Below are positions 5,227-19,754 of a DNA stretch of 35,362 nt, piece after piece. Numbering within the stretch: position 1 is the stretch's first letter; each line of letters starts with the position of its first letter. The position numbers were made by a program, and so were the translations under genes. Below the pieces are notes generated by a model that saw nothing but the letters and a program-made list of their open reading frames with translations, did no database searches and was not told where the DNA came from. Source of the stretch: a virus; IMG/VR virus record IMGVR_UViG_3300031963_000486, positions 1-35,362 of that record; one strand, written 5' to 3'.

Positions 5227-6774
5227 TTGCAGATATTAAATAATAAGGTTCTGCTGTTGAAAGTAAAAGAACCAAACAGAATTACCACGGTGATACCAAA
5301 AAGCCGTGTGCTTGATAGTGGTGAAGTAGCAGTGAAGTGGGGGCTTGAAGAAGCGCAAGTATTAAAGAACTTACGTATTCGGAACGTGCCCTCACCCATC
5401 ATTGCGCATTACGATTGGCCCGGTCTGTACAAACCGTTTGCTCATCAAAAAACTACCGCAGAGTTTCTCACGTTGCATCGCCGTGCGTTCTGTTTTAACG
5501 AGCAGGGTACAGGCAAGACGGGTAGCGTGATATGGGCGGCTGACTACCTGATGAAATTGGGAATGATCAAACGTGTGCTAGTACTATGCCCGTTGTCAAT
5601 CATGGAGTCTGCGTGGGTCAATGACTTATTCAGATTCGCTATGCATCGCACGGTGCAGGTCGCACATAGTTACTCACGAGACAAACGAATCAAAGCGGTG
5701 CAGTCTAACGCTGAGTTTGTAATATGTAACTTTGATGGTCTTGAGATTGTCAAGGATGCAGTCAACGAAAGCAATTTTGATTTGATCGTAGTTGACGAAG
5801 CAAATGCGTACAAGACGGTGGCAACAAAGCGTTGGAAAACGCTGAACTCAATTATCAAACCTAGCACGTGGGTGTGGATGCTAACAGGAACCCCTGCGGC
5901 TCAAGCACCTACCGATGCGTATGGGCTTGCAAAGATAGTCAACCCATCAAGCGTGCCACGATTCTTTGGTTCGTTTAAAGATCAGGTGATGCAAAAGATT
6001 ACGCAGTTTAAGTGGGTTCCCCGTCCCCGCGCAGAGGACATCATCCATCAAGTCTTGCAACCCGCAATTCGGTTTACGAAGGAAGAGTGCCTTGATCTAC
6101 CGGACATGACCTATGTAACTCGGAAGATACCCCTGACCCCTCAACAAGAGAAATACTACGAAACTATCCGTAAACATATGGTGGCAACAGCGGCAGGCGA
6201 GGAAATTACTACGGTAAATGCAGCAGCAAACCTTAACAAATTACTACAACTGTCAGGGGGCGCGGTCTATTCGGATAGTGGAGAGATCATAGCCTTTGAT
6301 GCTTCCAATCGATTAGCCGCTCTAAAAGAAGTTATAGACGAGGCATCACACAAGGTGATTGTATTTGTGCCGTACCGTCATGCCATTCAGATCGTGCACG
6401 AAGAACTTATCAGAGACGGATACACCTCAGAAATTATTAATGGTGCGGTGCCAGTCAACAGGCGCACGGAAATCTTTAATCGATTCCAAACGGAGCCTGA
6501 CCCCAAAGTGCTTGTTATCCAACCGCAGGCGGCATCTCATGGAGTTACTTTGCACGCCGCAAACGTGGTGGTGTATTGGTCGCCCGTCATGTCTGTAGAA
6601 ACTTATTTACAGGCGAACGCACGTGTTCATCGGGCCGGTCAGCGTAATCCTTGCACCGTAGTACATCTTCAGGGATCTCACGTTGAGAAAAGAATGTATG
6701 CAATGCTCGAAGCGAAAGTCGATATTCATACTAGGGTAGTAGACCTTTATAAAAATTTATTAGAGGAGGCTTGA
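5227..6774 (+). CDS. SNF2-family DNA helicase/translocase
   Basis: This is a 515-aa superfamily 2 ATPase. From the chosen TTG, Walker A (NEQGTGKTGS) has Lys97, motif II is DEAN (Asp190-Glu191), and motif III is LTGTPAAQ. Motif V is ASHGVTLHAAN and motif VI is QANARVHRAGQ, the last being typical of SNF2 enzymes. It has no accessory chromatin domains. TTG at 5227 is preferred over the in-frame GTG at 5215 because GGAG lies 6 nt upstream and the same SD serves 6829; the GTG would sit inside that SD. Such phage translocases probably remodel DNA or act with nucleases such as VRR-NUC. A promoter overlaps the stop codon. Confidence 0.93.
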   Translation: MQILNNKVLLLKVKEPNRITTVIPKSRVLDSGEVAVKWGLEEAQVLKNLRIRNVPSPIIAHYDWPGLYKPFAHQKTTAEFLTLHRRAFCFNEQGTGKTGSVIWAADYLMKLGMIKRVLVLCPLSIMESAWVNDLFRFAMHRTVQVAHSYSRDKRIKAVQSNAEFVICNFDGLEIVKDAVNESNFDLIVVDEANAYKTVATKRWKTLNSIIKPSTWVWMLTGTPAAQAPTDAYGLAKIVNPSSVPRFFGSFKDQVMQKITQFKWVPRPRAEDIIHQVLQPAIRFTKEECLDLPDMTYVTRKIPLTPQQEKYYETIRKHMVATAAGEEITTVNAAANLNKLLQLSGGAVYSDSGEIIAFDASNRLAALKEVIDEASHKVIVFVPYRHAIQIVHEELIRDGYTSEIINGAVPVNRRTEIFNRFQTEPDPKVLVIQPQAASHGVTLHAANVVVYWSPVMSVETYLQANARVHRAGQRNPCTVVHLQGSHVEKRMYAMLEAKVDIHTRVVDLYKNLLEEA

Positions 6775-6799
6775 CAGAGTAAAACATTATGATTAGTAT
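6771..6799 (+). promoter_or_regulatory. sigma70-like promoter overlapping the helicase stop codon
   Basis: TTGACA (6771-6776) is a perfect -35 box, followed after 17 nt by TAGTAT (6794-6799), a 4/6 match to the -10 box. A TATTAT at 6797-6802 is an alternative -10 with longer spacing. The -35 box contains the TGA of the helicase gene. Transcription would begin about 6806-6808, just before the SD GGAGAGTG of the next gene, and would drive the SSB and primase-helicase block. Motif-based only. Confidence 0.55.
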
Positions 6800-6828
6800 T
6801 ATCAAACATAACTATATGGAGAGTGAAA

Positions 6829-7224
6829 ATGGACAATGTGTCTGCCGATAAGTTGGTCAAGGCGTACATCAAAATCCGCGATAGGCGCAAGCAACTCACG
6901 GATGAGTACGAAGCGCAAGACAAAGAGTTAGAAGAATCGCAAGACATGATCAGCGAGAAACTTCTCGACGTTTGCAAAACAATGGGTGCTGACGGGTTCA
7001 AGACTGAATTTGGTACGGTGAGTCGCCGTGTTGCAAAAAGGTTTTGGACAAACGATTGGCACTCGTTTCACAAGTTCCTATTGGAACATCAAATGCCGGA
7101 GTTGTTGGAGAAGCGCATTGCGCAAACCAATATGGCTACGTTCCTTGAAGAAAACCCCGATTTGCTTCCACCGGGGCTAAATGTGGATAGCAAATACACA
7201 ATCTCTATCAGGAGAAAAACATGA
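6829..7224 (+). CDS. coiled-coil phage protein beside SSB, unknown function
   Basis: This is a 131-aa protein. ATG 6829 has GGAGAGTG 4-11 nt upstream; a GTG two codons earlier lies within that SD. The N-terminal 50 residues (DKLVKAYIKIRDRRKQLTDE and onward) form a charged coiled coil. The C-terminal part has GFKTEFGTVSRRVAKRFWTN, then a helical segment and a short hydrophilic end (VDSKYTISIRRKT). Similar coiled-coil proteins occur beside ssDNA-binding proteins in other phages, so a role with the SSB-like protein is plausible but unproven. It is the first gene after the 6771 promoter and ATGA-coupled to the next. Confidence 0.75.
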   Translation: MDNVSADKLVKAYIKIRDRRKQLTDEYEAQDKELEESQDMISEKLLDVCKTMGADGFKTEFGTVSRRVAKRFWTNDWHSFHKFLLEHQMPELLEKRIAQTNMATFLEENPDLLPPGLNVDSKYTISIRRKT

Positions 7225-11628: not shown

Positions 11629-11658
11629 ACCCCCGGCTAAATGTCGGGGGTCTTTTTT
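11629..11658 (+). terminator. rho-independent terminator of the early operon
   Basis: ACCCCCG (11629-11635) pairs with CGGGGGT (11645-11651) around a 9-nt loop, followed by C and six T. This is a strong + strand terminator ending the replication operon. The T-tract overlaps the stop codon (11657-11659) of the convergent late gene. On the - strand the hairpin has only a weak T-run (TTAAT), so it is one-directional. Confidence 0.88.
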
Positions 11659-14600
11659 ACAGCCCTGCTATATTCTTACGCATCGCCGGAATGTTGTAGA
11701 ACTTAAGCATCTCGTTCTCAGTCCGCTCAATTTCATCAATTACCCTGCGTTTTTCTTCCCCACCCATAGATTTGTCACCTGCTACAAGTTTGCGCAGTGC
11801 ACGAAAATCTTCCATCTGTTGATCAATCTCGTTGATCGTCTGCACGAGGGCGTATTTATTTAACTTCTCGTCAGTCAGATATGGCATCAACTCATCTACT
11901 CGACCATCGGCAACCATCCCATTGACGGTTGCATTTACCTCGGTCACTTTATCCCGCAAATCGTAATACTGCTCTTTGTAACCGCCCGGAATCTTGTCAT
12001 ACATAAACGTCTTGAATCCCGGCATTTCATACACATGGCGGTCAGGACGGTTAGTAAACGCCATGTTGGTCATGTCAAGCAACGTACCACCTGCAATACC
12101 TGTGTATCCCCGAAACACATACTCTAACTTCATCGGGGACAGCCCAGTGAGTTCACCAAACATCTTAGCCAACTCAGATGTGTTAGTCGTAAATTGTTGG
12201 TAAGCCTCTCTATCCTCTAAACCACGGCCCACAATCGGGGTGTTCGTAAAGAATGATTGGTTAAGCGATACTTCAATCAATGGCTTAATAAACTGCGGTG
12301 TTAAGTTCGGGCCTGTAATGGCATCAAACCCTGCCGTGGCAATAGCCTTGCGTAGTGCTGTTGCGTCCTGTGGACTTTCTGTGCCTTGACTAGCGATATA
12401 GTTGTAAGCACGCTCTGGCAATACTTTGAACAGGAACCCAACCTCAGGGGCTACTGGAATCTTAATACCTGCACCGGGGACGATAAAGTTCTTGTCTTTC
12501 TCAAAGTCACGCAGACCTTCGTACTCTTCATCATCCCCAACCATCATGGCGTACACAGCAGACAACGCTGCAAGTTTTATACCTGTAGACCAAAAGAGTC
12601 TAGTAGCCACTGCGCGTTCTTCAGATGCAATTCCTCGACCCGTCATGCTACGGTAGAACACCTCCATACCCTGAAGATAAGCGTTCATAAACGGAATAAT
12701 TTGCCGGAACAGACCTACCATCCGGTTAGCACCCTGCCGTTTAAAGTTAATAATCTCTTGAGCACGGTAACGGGCAAGCAAGACATCACCTTCAGGGAAC
12801 TGCTCAGATTTAGTTTCAGCCAGCGTTTGTTCAAAAACAGATTTGCGCAGTGCGGCATCTGAAGCAATAGAGAACGACTCCATAAAGTTAAGCGCTCTCT
12901 CCATCGTGCTACGTTGCTTCAAACCAAACTCTTTCTCAATATCTTCTTTTACGCGCCCCGTCATCAGGTCATACATACCCACAATGCCTAACTGCTCAAG
13001 ACGTTTGGTAGTAGCATCACCAAAATATGCGCCTTTAAACCCAGCCAACACACCTGCCGCAGTGCGGAAAGGATTCTTCGTGCCTGACATAACTGTGGCT
13101 CGGTACGAGTCTTGGAACAACTGACTGATAGCAAATTGTGGTGTGGCTGTCGTGGCTTTCCGCAAGAAGTTGGCAAATGATGCGAATGATTTAAGCAAAG
13201 GCATGGACAAACTCTCTACACCCTTAAATGCATACACATCAACTAAAGAATCTAATTCGTAGGACTCAGGCTTGCCGTCACGGTAAATGTAAATAACTTT
13301 GTTGGGGTCAACACCAGACTGCCCCTCTTGCACCCGACGGATACCAAGATTTAACTCATTAAACGTATCAACCAGATTTAGGGCGGCATGGTTACGGATG
13401 GCACTATTAGTCATCCAAAAGGACAAACCAACCATATTGTCAAAGACGTTGTTAATTTCGTCCTCACTACCTTTCAATTTGCCCATCTGCCCAAGGTTCG
13501 TTAGACCCTTGAAATATCCTTTGGGGCTAGTCTGTGCGGACTCTTCGTACTCTTTAATACGGTTCCAAGGCACGTAATCAATAGCATCTTTCCAAACCTG
13601 AGCCTGTTCTTTGCTTAACCTATCACCCTCTACCATCGCGTCAATCAGACCATTTTTAAACCCTGTGTACTCCTTAAACGCGGTCTCAAGTTCAGGGAAG
13701 TCTTTAAATGCTTGTAAGCCAGCATCAATCTTGTCTTGGCTTGGTAGGTTAAACACATCTTTATTAGGGTGATTTTTTAAGGCGTTAGCACGACGGGCAA
13801 TGAAAGCATCGTTGGCTAGTTTAAATGCAAGTTCTTGATTGCCTAGCCTATCACCCAATTTACGCACCGTATTCATGGCGCCTTCTAAACTGTTTGGGCC
13901 TTGCTTAACATCCCAACCGATATTTTTATTCAGGAACAGCGTGCCCTGCTTCATAGCGGCAACCGTCATGGTGTCCGAATGTTCAGCAGCGGTCATAAAT
14001 ACGTCAGGGCGGACTTTACCTAAAGCATTACGTATTTTGCCGCCAAAGGCATCAGTTAGTTTGCGTTGTACAGAATAACCTTTAAAGAAAACTTGGGTTC
14101 CAATTTTATCAATCTGGTCCTGCCGATAAGATGGATCAAAGAATAAAGCACCAACCTTTTCAATCGTAGATCTTTCAGGAACCTTGGGCTTCTCGTTAGA
14201 CATACCCTTCATCTTGTCTACAGCCTGTTGCGCTCTCTGCCCTTCGGCAGTCAGAGTTGGTGCAGCCCCACGACGGAATACCCCTTCTTGCTTACCTGCC
14301 ACGCCTTCAGCCCGTGTGCCTTTACCTTCTATAACGTAATCTCTGGCTTGATCTAATATGTCGTTTATATCTTTGGCGCTGATATTTTTAGGAAGAGCAC
14401 CAATCTTGACAAGGAATCGACGTATGAGATCTTTAATACGTTGAATAACACTCTTAATCTGCTTTTCTTCTACAGGCGTAAGCCGAGCATTGGTTTCGGA
14501 CATTTCAGCCAAAACTTCTTCAACAGCAGTCCGTTTATCTAGTTTAGTTTCCTTAATCTTTTCATCGGCACGTTGTCTAATTTCTGAGTTAGACGCATAA

Positions 14601-17116
14601 ATACTATCCATAACCTTGCGGTATTCTTTACCAAGGATAGATCTAAGACCAAAATGCCCAACGGTTTCGTGTGCTACTGTAAGTATTACGTCTTCATAAC
14701 CCACTAAGTTATCAGAAACAAGATAGACCGCTTGAGTACGAGAATCCCAAACACCTTTAGGGTTGGCTCCAGCAGCGGCAATTTCTGACCGTAAATTCTC
14801 AGGCAGTTCGCTTATGGATTGAACAACTTCAATCTTGGGTACATTAGCCCAGCCAGCCGTTAACTTACGGACTGCTTTCTCGACCAAATCCCGTGGATTA
14901 CCTGTTGTTCCGGCTTGAGCATTTCGGTATCTTAGATAGCGTTGAGCGGCTTTCTCACCTTGCTTGGCTTTGAACCGATACTGCTTAACTTTGTCCTTTA
15001 GACGCTCCTGCAACTCAGGAGAGAGGGCTTTCTGTGCGGCCTTATTGACACGGTTTAGTTTGGTCTCAAAGGCAATCTCGCCAGCCATCCGGTCAACTGC
15101 GGCGTTAATAGAACCTGTATTCTTAACGTACTCACCAAAGGCGGCATTGGCTTCGTCTATAGTTTGCTGTCTTAGTGGACGTTGCTCAGGTCTCTCTCCA
15201 GCAGCAAGTGGTCCAGCGTCAGGGATATTATCTTCCACTCCCTCTGTGACAGTTGGTTCAGCGGCTCCGGTAGGGGCCAATTCTCCTCCGGGTACTCCAG
15301 CGCTAGGAACGCCTGACTCATCTGTTCCGGGGACAGTTTCTCTATCAACTCCGACATCTTGTTCTCCTCTGAAACCCATCTTGTTCAGGAAATCTTCTAC
15401 TCCTTGAGCAACTTTGGGGCTTCGCTTAGGGTCACTACCAAACGCATCAAGCGCCTCTTTAACTGTAGCCGCCTGCTCGGGGTCAGTTAAATCCTTGCCT
15501 AGAATCTCTTCTCTTAGTTTCTTATTAGACGGGGCTATGCCCATGTCCTTAAAGTCTTGCTCCGTAATAGGGCGACCTTCGGCAACTGGTATCGCTTCTT
15601 CTACAACCTCTTCTTCGACAGCCCCGGTGCGTAATGCTCCCGGCGTTGGCTCGCCTTTTTTCTTTCCCTTGGTCGCAAACAACTCTTGTTGCTGTGCTGC
15701 GGCCCCAAATCCCTGCAACGCCACGCTCTCAATACCAGACTTAGTAGACTCGCTCAGGTTAGGGTTAGCCCTTACACGATTGAGAATCTGCCCAACAGCA
15801 ACTTGATCTTCTGGGTCAGTTAAATCTTTACCCTCAAGTTCTTTATAGAAAGAAGAACGCTTACTTAAACCGGTCCGGTCTAAAACGTCAGCCGTAAGCA
15901 CTGTGGGAAACTGTGCTTCAGGAACAGGCCCAGCAAACTCATCTCCGGGTATAAACCCAGTCTCTTCTAAACCAGCCTCACGGATAGCCATCTGAGTCGG
16001 TGCTTGAGTCCTAATCTGTTCTTCCAGCGTGGTTGGCTCAGTACGAGCAAAAAACTCCTCATCTGTTTCTTTACGCTTCTTCCCGCCTTTTTCTTCTACA
16101 GGAAGTTTTATACGGGCCAAGTCTTGCTCAACCTGCTGGATGTCGGCTGCACGTAACTCTTCAATCCGTGCTTGAATATCAGGGGTCTGCTCCCCACTCA
16201 TTAACGACGCCATCTCTCTTGCCCGATCTACAGGCGTCATCTCAAATGCATTAACAGGGGCGACAGGAGGAGTAACAGCAGTCTCGGCAGGGGTAGTAGG
16301 AGCCGCAGGCCCACGAGCACGACGACCAATAGCCAAGTCAAGTAAGCCCTGAACAATTGCACCCGTAGCACCACCGTAGGCGGCTTGCTCTCCAAGACCT
16401 TCGATTAGTTCTTGCTCGGGTTTATAGATGCCCTTGGCAATTAAGTTCTGAGCGAACCCGGAGGCGGCTTCCTGCGCGGCTTCTTCACCACCAGCAGCAA
16501 GAGCACGTTTTACATACGCAACTCCACCACCCACGATGTCATCACTAAGACGACCCAAGATACGTAATGGAGCAAAGGCTTCAGCCGCACCCGGGATAAT
16601 TCCGTATCCAGTAGCCGCAGCCCGTTGTTCTTCCGTAGCCCCTTCTGCTTCAGCCCGTGTTCTAGCCTCACCTGCACCAGCCGCCGTACCAAGACCCACT
16701 GCCGCAGCACGTCCAGCCAGACCAAATGGGCCAGCAGCAAGGAACGGAACAGTTGAGCCAACCGCTTCACCCAGTTTACGTCCTACAGTCTCTTCATATC
16801 CGGGGGCGGCTTCGAAAGGTTTCTTAGCGGCAGTGGCTAATTCTTTAATTTTTTCTCGGGTTGGTGTTTCGTATTCTTCAGGCAATAAAGCAGCCGCACC
16901 GGCACCAGCCGTTTCGAGCAACCCAACCGCACCGGGAACTAGACCTTTAAAGGCTTCCTTGACCTGCCCACCGACTGTGGGTTCGGGGGTAGGTTTAATG
17001 GGTTTGGGTGCAAATTGTCTGGCAGCAAAAGCCGCCACTTGTTCTTCAGTAGCGTCATCAGGGCCTTCAATTCGGTAGATAGATCCATCTGGACCTTGAA
17101 CCCTAAAGATAGCCAC
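11657..17116 (-). CDS. 1819-aa polyvalent/internal virion protein with HETVGH metallopeptidase motif
   Basis: This giant late protein starts at GTG 17116 behind AAGGA (7 nt). The N-terminus (MAIFRVQGPDGSIYRIEG...ATEEQVAAFAA) is a short module common on large phage proteins. Ala/Gly-rich helical segments (about 60-270) could be membrane-active. Two related segments carrying GKDLTDPE (about 425 and 537) follow, then Pro/Glu/Gly-rich linkers. HETVGH at 816-821 is an HExxGH zinc-peptidase motif. From about 970 the sequence resembles the LPD38 region of polyvalent proteins, including RQIIPFMNAYLQGMEVFYRS. Such proteins are thought to be packaged and ejected with the DNA, to protect it or modify the host. 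A 61-codon gene is nested at 15172-15357. Confidence 0.85.
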   Translation of the reverse strand: MAIFRVQGPDGSIYRIEGPDDATEEQVAAFAARQFAPKPIKPTPEPTVGGQVKEAFKGLVPGAVGLLETAGAGAAALLPEEYETPTREKIKELATAAKKPFEAAPGYEETVGRKLGEAVGSTVPFLAAGPFGLAGRAAAVGLGTAAGAGEARTRAEAEGATEEQRAAATGYGIIPGAAEAFAPLRILGRLSDDIVGGGVAYVKRALAAGGEEAAQEAASGFAQNLIAKGIYKPEQELIEGLGEQAAYGGATGAIVQGLLDLAIGRRARGPAAPTTPAETAVTPPVAPVNAFEMTPVDRAREMASLMSGEQTPDIQARIEELRAADIQQVEQDLARIKLPVEEKGGKKRKETDEEFFARTEPTTLEEQIRTQAPTQMAIREAGLEETGFIPGDEFAGPVPEAQFPTVLTADVLDRTGLSKRSSFYKELEGKDLTDPEDQVAVGQILNRVRANPNLSESTKSGIESVALQGFGAAAQQQELFATKGKKKGEPTPGALRTGAVEEEVVEEAIPVAEGRPITEQDFKDMGIAPSNKKLREEILGKDLTDPEQAATVKEALDAFGSDPKRSPKVAQGVEDFLNKMGFRGEQDVGVDRETVPGTDESGVPSAGVPGGELAPTGAAEPTVTEGVEDNIPDAGPLAAGERPEQRPLRQQTIDEANAAFGEYVKNTGSINAAVDRMAGEIAFETKLNRVNKAAQKALSPELQERLKDKVKQYRFKAKQGEKAAQRYLRYRNAQAGTTGNPRDLVEKAVRKLTAGWANVPKIEVVQSISELPENLRSEIAAAGANPKGVWDSRTQAVYLVSDNLVGYEDVILTVAHETVGHFGLRSILGKEYRKVMDSIYASNSEIRQRADEKIKETKLDKRTAVEEVLAEMSETNARLTPVEEKQIKSVIQRIKDLIRRFLVKIGALPKNISAKDINDILDQARDYVIEGKGTRAEGVAGKQEGVFRRGAAPTLTAEGQRAQQAVDKMKGMSNEKPKVPERSTIEKVGALFFDPSYRQDQIDKIGTQVFFKGYSVQRKLTDAFGGKIRNALGKVRPDVFMTAAEHSDTMTVAAMKQGTLFLNKNIGWDVKQGPNSLEGAMNTVRKLGDRLGNQELAFKLANDAFIARRANALKNHPNKDVFNLPSQDKIDAGLQAFKDFPELETAFKEYTGFKNGLIDAMVEGDRLSKEQAQVWKDAIDYVPWNRIKEYEESAQTSPKGYFKGLTNLGQMGKLKGSEDEINNVFDNMVGLSFWMTNSAIRNHAALNLVDTFNELNLGIRRVQEGQSGVDPNKVIYIYRDGKPESYELDSLVDVYAFKGVESLSMPLLKSFASFANFLRKATTATPQFAISQLFQDSYRATVMSGTKNPFRTAAGVLAGFKGAYFGDATTKRLEQLGIVGMYDLMTGRVKEDIEKEFGLKQRSTMERALNFMESFSIASDAALRKSVFEQTLAETKSEQFPEGDVLLARYRAQEIINFKRQGANRMVGLFRQIIPFMNAYLQGMEVFYRSMTGRGIASEERAVATRLFWSTGIKLAALSAVYAMMVGDDEEYEGLRDFEKDKNFIVPGAGIKIPVAPEVGFLFKVLPERAYNYIASQGTESPQDATALRKAIATAGFDAITGPNLTPQFIKPLIEVSLNQSFFTNTPIVGRGLEDREAYQQFTTNTSELAKMFGELTGLSPMKLEYVFRGYTGIAGGTLLDMTNMAFTNRPDRHVYEMPGFKTFMYDKIPGGYKEQYYDLRDKVTEVNATVNGMVADGRVDELMPYLTDEKLNKYALVQTINEIDQQMEDFRALRKLVAGDKSMGGEEKRRVIDEIERTENEMLKFYNIPAMRKNIAGL
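15172..15357 (-). CDS. nested 61-aa gene in the +1 frame of the polyvalent protein gene
   Basis: ATG 15357 has AGAGGAGA about 6 nt upstream on the - strand, a strong SD in the middle of another gene. The product (MSELIEKLSPEQMSQAFLAL, then a PEENWPLPEPL segment and a long Leu/Glu helix ending SNVH) looks like a real soluble helical protein. In contrast, the main frame here (about residues 587-648) is a Pro/Gly/Thr/Glu linker of the kind expected from an unconstrained frame. It resembles small acidic Leu-rich phage proteins with an ENWP motif, but I cannot name a family. It is probably translated independently from the late transcript. Confidence 0.65.
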   Translation of the reverse strand: MSELIEKLSPEQMSQAFLALEYPEENWPLPEPLNQLSQREWKIISLTLDHLLLERDLSNVH

Positions 17117-18848: not shown

Positions 18849-19754
18849 TCACTTCAGAAGGTTATATACGCCAAGCCCAGCCAAACCCAAACCACCGATC
18901 TGTGATGCTACGGATGGAGGCGGCTCATAAACGGTCTTACCTCCAGTAGCCGCAAGGTTTGCGCTACCACGCAGGATGTCAGACATAAAGCCAAGTTGCT
19001 TGTACGGATACTGTTGCTGTTGTAAGAAGTCCTGATATTGTAGGTCAAGGGCTTTCTGTTGCTCGGCCTGACCCATTGCACCAAAGGCTTCCTGCGCTTT
19101 AGCCAAGTCAATACCTGCCTGCTGCTGACCAATACCCAACTGACCTAATGTAGCGCCTGCTTGAGTAGCGGCTTGGGAGCCTTGTAGCCCAGCCGTAGTG
19201 CCAAACTGCATACCCTGCATGGCTTGTTCGTAGGCTTTCTGGGCACCTGTTGCCTGAATGTTTGCCAGATTTTGTTGTAGGTTGCGCTCACGCTCAGTCC
19301 CAGCAAGAAGTTGACGTGCACCTCCGTATGTACCCTGACGAGCCGCCCCTAAATTCTGAGCCAACTGCCCTTTCTGGGCATCACGGATTGCTTCTTGTTT
19401 TTGCAGATCAACCACGTTCTGCATATAGGGGGACATAAAGGCTTGCTGCGCCATCGGGTCAGTAGCCATCTGCATATACTGTTGCCCTGCACCAAGAGCA
19501 CCTAATCCCCCAGCAGCGGCTAACCCAGTACCAGCAGCAAATTGACCGGGTTGCTCCATAGCAGCCACGTTTTGCCGAACGGCTTGTTGCTCTGGGGTAG
19601 CAGTAGCCATACGCTGCCCACCGTAGGTTTGATAAGGAGATTCTGTTAATGCTTCGGATTTACCAAGCATCTTCTCCGCATACGGTTTAGCATACTCAGG
19701 TATCGTCGTTTGCGACGTACTGGTTGGTGCTGGTGGCGCTGATGGTGAACACAT
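18849..19754 (-). CDS. Gln/Ala-rich internal virion or DNA-transfer protein
   Basis: This 301-aa protein has a Ser/Pro-rich start (MCSPSAPPAPTSTS), a Gly/Ala-rich hydrophobic segment (about 75-92), and a long Gln/Ala/Gly helical region. FMSPYMQNVVDLQKQEAIRD and GAARQGTYGGARQ resemble a family of late proteins widespread in aquatic podovirus-like phages and placed near internal virion proteins. A C-terminal Gly-rich hydrophobic end (IGGLGLAGLGVYNLLK) may contact membrane. The Cys at position 2 is not a lipobox, because no signal peptide precedes it. A role in DNA ejection is inferred from composition and neighbours. Confidence 0.75.
   Translation of the reverse strand: MCSPSAPPAPTSTSQTTIPEYAKPYAEKMLGKSEALTESPYQTYGGQRMATATPEQQAVRQNVAAMEQPGQFAAGTGLAAAGGLGALGAGQQYMQMATDPMAQQAFMSPYMQNVVDLQKQEAIRDAQKGQLAQNLGAARQGTYGGARQLLAGTERERNLQQNLANIQATGAQKAYEQAMQGMQFGTTAGLQGSQAATQAGATLGQLGIGQQQAGIDLAKAQEAFGAMGQAEQQKALDLQYQDFLQQQQYPYKQLGFMSDILRGSANLAATGGKTVYEPPPSVASQIGGLGLAGLGVYNLLK

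Follow-up and report, generated by a model that had tools for sequence, protein, structure and literature searches.

A predicted gene family overprinted on the large polyvalent protein genes of uncultured tailed phages

Genes nested out of frame inside larger genes have rarely been proven in double-stranded DNA (dsDNA) phages, and gene prediction programs have a bias against overlaps. Fully embedded +1 genes are known in these phages, with Rz1 within Rz as the model case, and such o-spanin genes have usually gone unannotated (PMC6139136). Genes contained completely in another gene account for ca. 30% of the overlaps annotated in viruses (PMC7017920). The large polyvalent proteins of phages, for which packaging in the virion, injection, and processing by zincin metallopeptidases have been proposed, were defined in a paper that makes no mention of overlapping or alternative frames (PMC5512222), and no published description of polyvalent genes that contain a nested gene was found in the subset of the open-access literature searched.

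Here, we analyzed an uncultured virus sequence of 35,362 nucleotides (IMG/VR record IMGVR_UViG_3300031963_000486, positions 1 to 35,362, hereinafter the window), in which a 61-codon frame lies inside the gene of one such protein. As in the Rz/Rz1 pair of lambda and its relatives, a small gene lies entirely within a longer dsDNA phage gene, in its +1 frame. Unlike in that pair, the host is a giant polyvalent protein gene, of the kind characterized by the domains LPD38 (PF18857) and LPD39 (PF18858), and not a lysis gene, and the predicted product is acidic and helical. A motif search found a lipobox in none of the 134 members of the family described below, and we rejected on this ground its membership among the o-spanins (Rz1). 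The nested gene is also distinct from every domain described in phage-type large polyvalent proteins. The family and its setting appear new, although the architecture itself is known.

The nested frame and its host gene

The host gene (positions 11657 to 17116, minus strand) encodes a protein of 1819 amino acids, which its homologues, the virion genes nearby, and an LPD38 domain at residues 1529 to 1699 (12020 to 12532, minus strand; Pfam E = 2.7e-29) identify as a large polyvalent protein. Around it lie virion structural, endolysin, and tail fiber genes, and two genes upstream, also on the minus strand, a DNA ejection protein gene (18849 to 19754; PHROG 4287, E = 4.8e-18), a neighborhood that points to a tailed phage and to its late genes. 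In the translation, residues ca. 587 to 648 form a linker of Gly, Pro, Thr, Val, and Ala (15175 to 15357, minus strand), in agreement with the Pro/Gly/Thr linker noted previously, and the zincin-like motif HETVGH (14654 to 14671, minus strand) follows the nested stretch after ca. 170 residues. Among the 134 homologues, the main frame across the overlap is rich in Gly (16.5%), Ala (13.5%), Pro (12%), Val (11%), and Thr (10%), and Cys and aromatic residues are nearly absent. By this composition, the main-frame linker is predicted to be disordered, its residue pattern being partly a shadow of the nested codons.

The nested gene occupies positions 15172 to 15357 of the minus strand, wholly within the 1819-aa open reading frame (ORF) and in its +1 phase. 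It starts at ATG 15357, ends with the last sense codon CAC followed by a TAA stop (15174 to 15172), and its 61 codons translate as MSELIEKLSPEQMSQAFLALEYPEENWPLPEPLNQLSQREWKIISLTLDHLLLERDLSNVH. An initial annotation, made from the letters of the window, had singled out this minus-strand frame and a Shine-Dalgarno (SD) sequence ca. 6 nt before its ATG. Both are present, the SD being AGAGGAGA (15363 to 15370, minus strand), with a spacing of 5 nt to the start codon and a duplex energy with the anti-SD of -9.1 kcal/mol. Taken alone, the open frame of the window is weak evidence for a gene, since it stayed open in 12.5% of the synonymous shuffles of the main gene and, as detailed below, 9.4% of in-phase ATG or GTG codons have an SD. 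It is the comparison with relatives that places the nested gene far beyond chance.

Nested relatives and their translation starts

Relatives of the 61-aa product, for which a profile search had been suggested, do exist and are all nested. Profile and pattern scans of uncultured phage contigs gave 134 distinct sequences, a number that is a lower bound because 80 of the 197 relatives reported by the last scan were kept as loci. All members come from metagenomic viral contigs, and every one lies on the same strand as, and wholly inside, a longer ORF (median, ca. 2,040 aa) in another phase, as Rz1 does. This phase is identical in 134/134, each main codon beginning at the third position of a nested one. 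The nested ORF of one close relative (L001) is 90% identical to that of the window, and the distant nested homologues retrieved from loci coding for the big protein, with ca. 30% identity, keep the same phase. A profile built from six sequences led to 34 loci, all nested, and exactly one nested copy was found in each of the 14 positive contigs tested.

No stand-alone copy appeared among the 134 distinct sequences, nor any bacterial or prophage copy in the GTDB genomes scanned. Similarly, no isolate was found to carry the gene, as three tblastn queries had no match in 50,697 phage records, and the 61-aa family was not found in the isolates with LPD38-like genes (L122 to L127). Pattern-based scans miss diverged copies, so the statement that the gene never stands alone applies to the collections searched. 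A former stand-alone gene over which the big frame was extended had been considered as an origin, a scenario that these searches do not support. In codon usage, the main frame is the slightly closer one (P = 0.001), which weakly suggests that it is the older of the two, although as a guide to age this signal is too weak to decide.

Two classes of host genes carry the family, LPD38 and LPD39, with different C-terminal parts, and in 117 of 128 host proteins the nested stretch is followed within 900 residues by a HExxH or HExxxH motif. The nested gene is present in most lineages of a tree built on the C-terminal region and absent from a few (L063/L065/L069, L115, and L118), as well as from the homologues of cultured phages (L122, L125, and L126). 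This pattern fits ancient vertical descent, the gene having been lost or replaced sporadically. As judged from the tree and the scans, the family is mostly vertically inherited in LPD38- and LPD39-type genes of uncultured tailed phages and, within the collections searched, is found only there. The zincin-like motif is kept in big genes devoid of the nested gene (L008, L063, L065, L069, and the isolates), so the latter is not required for it.

To locate the starts, we took in 128 members the ATG or GTG nearest to the profile start, chosen blind to the SD (89 ATG and 39 GTG); six members have neither codon near the domain boundary. An SD duplex of -5 kcal/mol or better preceded 87% of the 128 starts (median, -6.9), versus 9.4% of 13,760 in-phase ATG/GTG controls (median, -1.5; P = 8e-61). 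In addition, 31 members have an in-frame stop five codons or fewer upstream of the start, and three members (L100, L102, and L066) have a frame that opens at the ATG itself or immediately before it. The SDs and the upstream stops support independent initiation and disfavor access to the frame by frameshifting. A programmed frameshift from the big gene, which in place of a free microprotein would give a shortened polyvalent protein ending in a helical tail, would be in line with the constant phase of the nested frame. However, we regard it as very improbable in view of the start codon with an SD that most members have at the domain boundary, of the stops preceding it, and of the three frames that open at, or immediately before, their ATG.

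With the open frame, the start codon, and the SD all conserved in relatives, it is very likely that this is a true overlapping gene, independently initiated at an internal SD and start codon. Ribosomes would start separately there, at ATG (or also GTG in relatives), on the mRNA of the polyvalent protein and, in the +1 phase, would produce a distinct protein, acidic and helical, of ca. 57 to 61 residues, while this DNA would be decoded in the big frame into a disordered linker. The independent microprotein contemplated in the initial annotation is thus supported by the conserved start and SD and by the constraint on the nested frame described in the next section, from which we infer its translation.

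Constraint on the two overlapping frames

Between the window and L001 there are 17 substitutions, 10 of them at nested third positions, and the synonymous/nonsynonymous codon counts are 9/6 in the nested frame and 4/11 in the main frame. Over 31 disjoint pairs, nested positions 1, 2, and 3 accumulated 276, 161, and 419 substitutions, with synonymous/nonsynonymous counts of 289/332 (nested) and 50/531 (main). Given that the alignments of these 31 pairs had been built on the nested frame, the test was redone blind, on 22 closer pairs aligned by the big protein only. Inside the overlap, main codon positions 1, 2, and 3 had 174, 83, and 42 substitutions, versus 3752, 2304, and 9293 outside (Fisher P = 6e-61, a value that is indicative only, as sites within one pair share history). 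Correspondingly, the synonymous/nonsynonymous counts of the main frame were 26/227 inside the overlap and 7099/4682 outside, and the direction was the same in nearly every pair.

Other comparisons were made along the genes. In diverged pairs, amino acid identity was higher in the nested than in the main frame (in alignments made on the nested frame). A sliding scan of whole big genes for suppressed third-position change recovered the nested stretch in most of the judgeable pairs, that is, those with enough substitutions, and in the window pair this was the sole stretch flagged. Two more stretches flagged for low change at main position 3, in the pairs L020/L032 and L027/L031, have stops in each of the two alternative frames and are common linkers that evolve fast.

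On these counts, the nested frame is the more constrained of the two across the overlap and is under purifying selection, as had been anticipated when the frame was first noted. The accompanying idea that the main frame tolerates anything does not hold, since it is open in 134/134 and its disordered composition is kept. An open frame arisen by chance and kept only through a conserved main protein or an RNA element might seem compatible with the window gene, 12.5% of whose synonymous shuffles leave such a frame open. Against it stand the piling up of substitutions at nested third positions together with their suppression at main third positions, the higher nested identity in diverged pairs, and the two other fast-evolving linkers, in which no other frame is open. 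The blind 22-pair test refutes this explanation, to which we give practically no weight, and the stretch is almost certainly a real gene.

A different nested ORF, of 78 aa (MTDLQLKTLQSLLRITKKAPPQHRL...), was detected in the same phase in another LPD38 polyvalent gene without the 61-aa family (L014, positions 6628 to 6864, plus strand, corresponding to L237, 5001 to 5237), with a relative in L238 (5001 to 5231). Between L237 and L238, the synonymous/nonsynonymous counts of the main frame are 0/17 in the overlap versus 40/10 in the upstream flank, and those of the nested frame in the overlap are 10/9. This ORF is probably a second overprinted gene, unrelated to the 61-aa family.

The nested product and its possible roles

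The family consensus is approximately MxxxxLxxLSPEQVSQAFxxLxxxxxxPPELxxLxxxEWxLLxxxLDxLLxEKxxSxLH, and the C-terminal residue is His or Gln in 130 of the 134 members. The proteins have a median pI of 4.6 and a median charge of -5. The helical nature attributed to the product from its sequence is echoed by two AlphaFold models (pLDDT, 78 and 82), which are helical and have no strands. No assignable match was obtained in sequence searches of Pfam, PHROGs, NCBIfam, PADLOC, or PDB. The best PDB profile match, a MarR winged helix-turn-helix (wHTH) protein (E = 0.012 over 43 residues), was not significant, and we discarded this identity in the light of models without strands and of Foldseek, which for the two models gave no match below E = 0.8 and thus no fold that would back any function.

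Made from the same message as the polyvalent protein and never found apart from its gene, the nested protein would most simply be a partner synthesized together with this virion-packaged protein, a role that we propose tentatively, at somewhat less than an even chance. Such a partner may be an assembly chaperone of the polyvalent protein or an inhibitor keeping its zincin-like metallopeptidase inactive until injection. The strict linkage between nested and host gene across two host classes counts in favor of this role, as do the zincin-like motif downstream in 117/128 hosts and the ejection gene nearby. However, the big genes without the nested gene that retain the motif speak against an obligatory partnership, and the linkage need not be functional, because the overlap itself hinders relocation.

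For this last reason, it is about as likely that the gene, although real, encodes an independent effector, acting in anti-defense or host takeover, whose overprinting on a permissive linker is incidental and which is functionally unrelated to the polyvalent protein. Small acidic helical proteins, as the nested products are predicted to be, are typical of phage inhibitors. The occurrence of the family in two host-gene classes with different C-terminal parts and the unrelated nested gene in another polyvalent gene also point in this direction. Nevertheless, free effectors usually change loci, and a stand-alone copy is absent from the 134 distinct sequences and from the GTDB-genome and isolate scans.

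Whichever of these roles applies, uncultured phages that have diverged widely conserve the nested gene, invariably in one relative frame and in one kind of host gene, and the family offers a clean data set on how overlapping genes evolve. The linkers of giant virion proteins can apparently hold a second coding layer, which raises the testable question of whether an injected polyvalent protein has its own regulator in another frame. A broader proposal, which we consider rather unlikely as a whole, is that of a widespread family existing solely as an overprinted gene in giant injected polyvalent proteins and acting as their dedicated partner, with polyvalent linkers being a general nursery for overprinting, the latter suggested by the unrelated second nested gene. 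If it were true, an effector and its controller (e.g., a chaperone, or an inhibitor acting on the zincin-like protease) would be encoded by the same DNA.

Some additional features of the polyvalent loci were observed. Thalassomonas phage BA3 (L124) has two annotated hypothetical genes inside its big gene (2619 to 2951 and 5712 to 6056), neither of which is a member of the 61-aa family. The main ORF of L001 (30 to 5816) includes before LPD38 an extra segment of ca. 140 aa, missing from the window protein, which contains VDAEGKPLMAYHGTPYFEGYEFKPFESKN and resembles an ADP-ribosyltransferase, a difference that represents a putative domain gain or loss between close relatives. Finally, at the 3' end of the polyvalent gene there is an opposite-strand gene of ca. 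65 aa (L001, 5888 to 6085; L008, 10208 to 10411; L015, 10056 to 10250), which adjoins a primase/helicase gene and has a conserved product (...FIPCLDT...GLRCWRVK).
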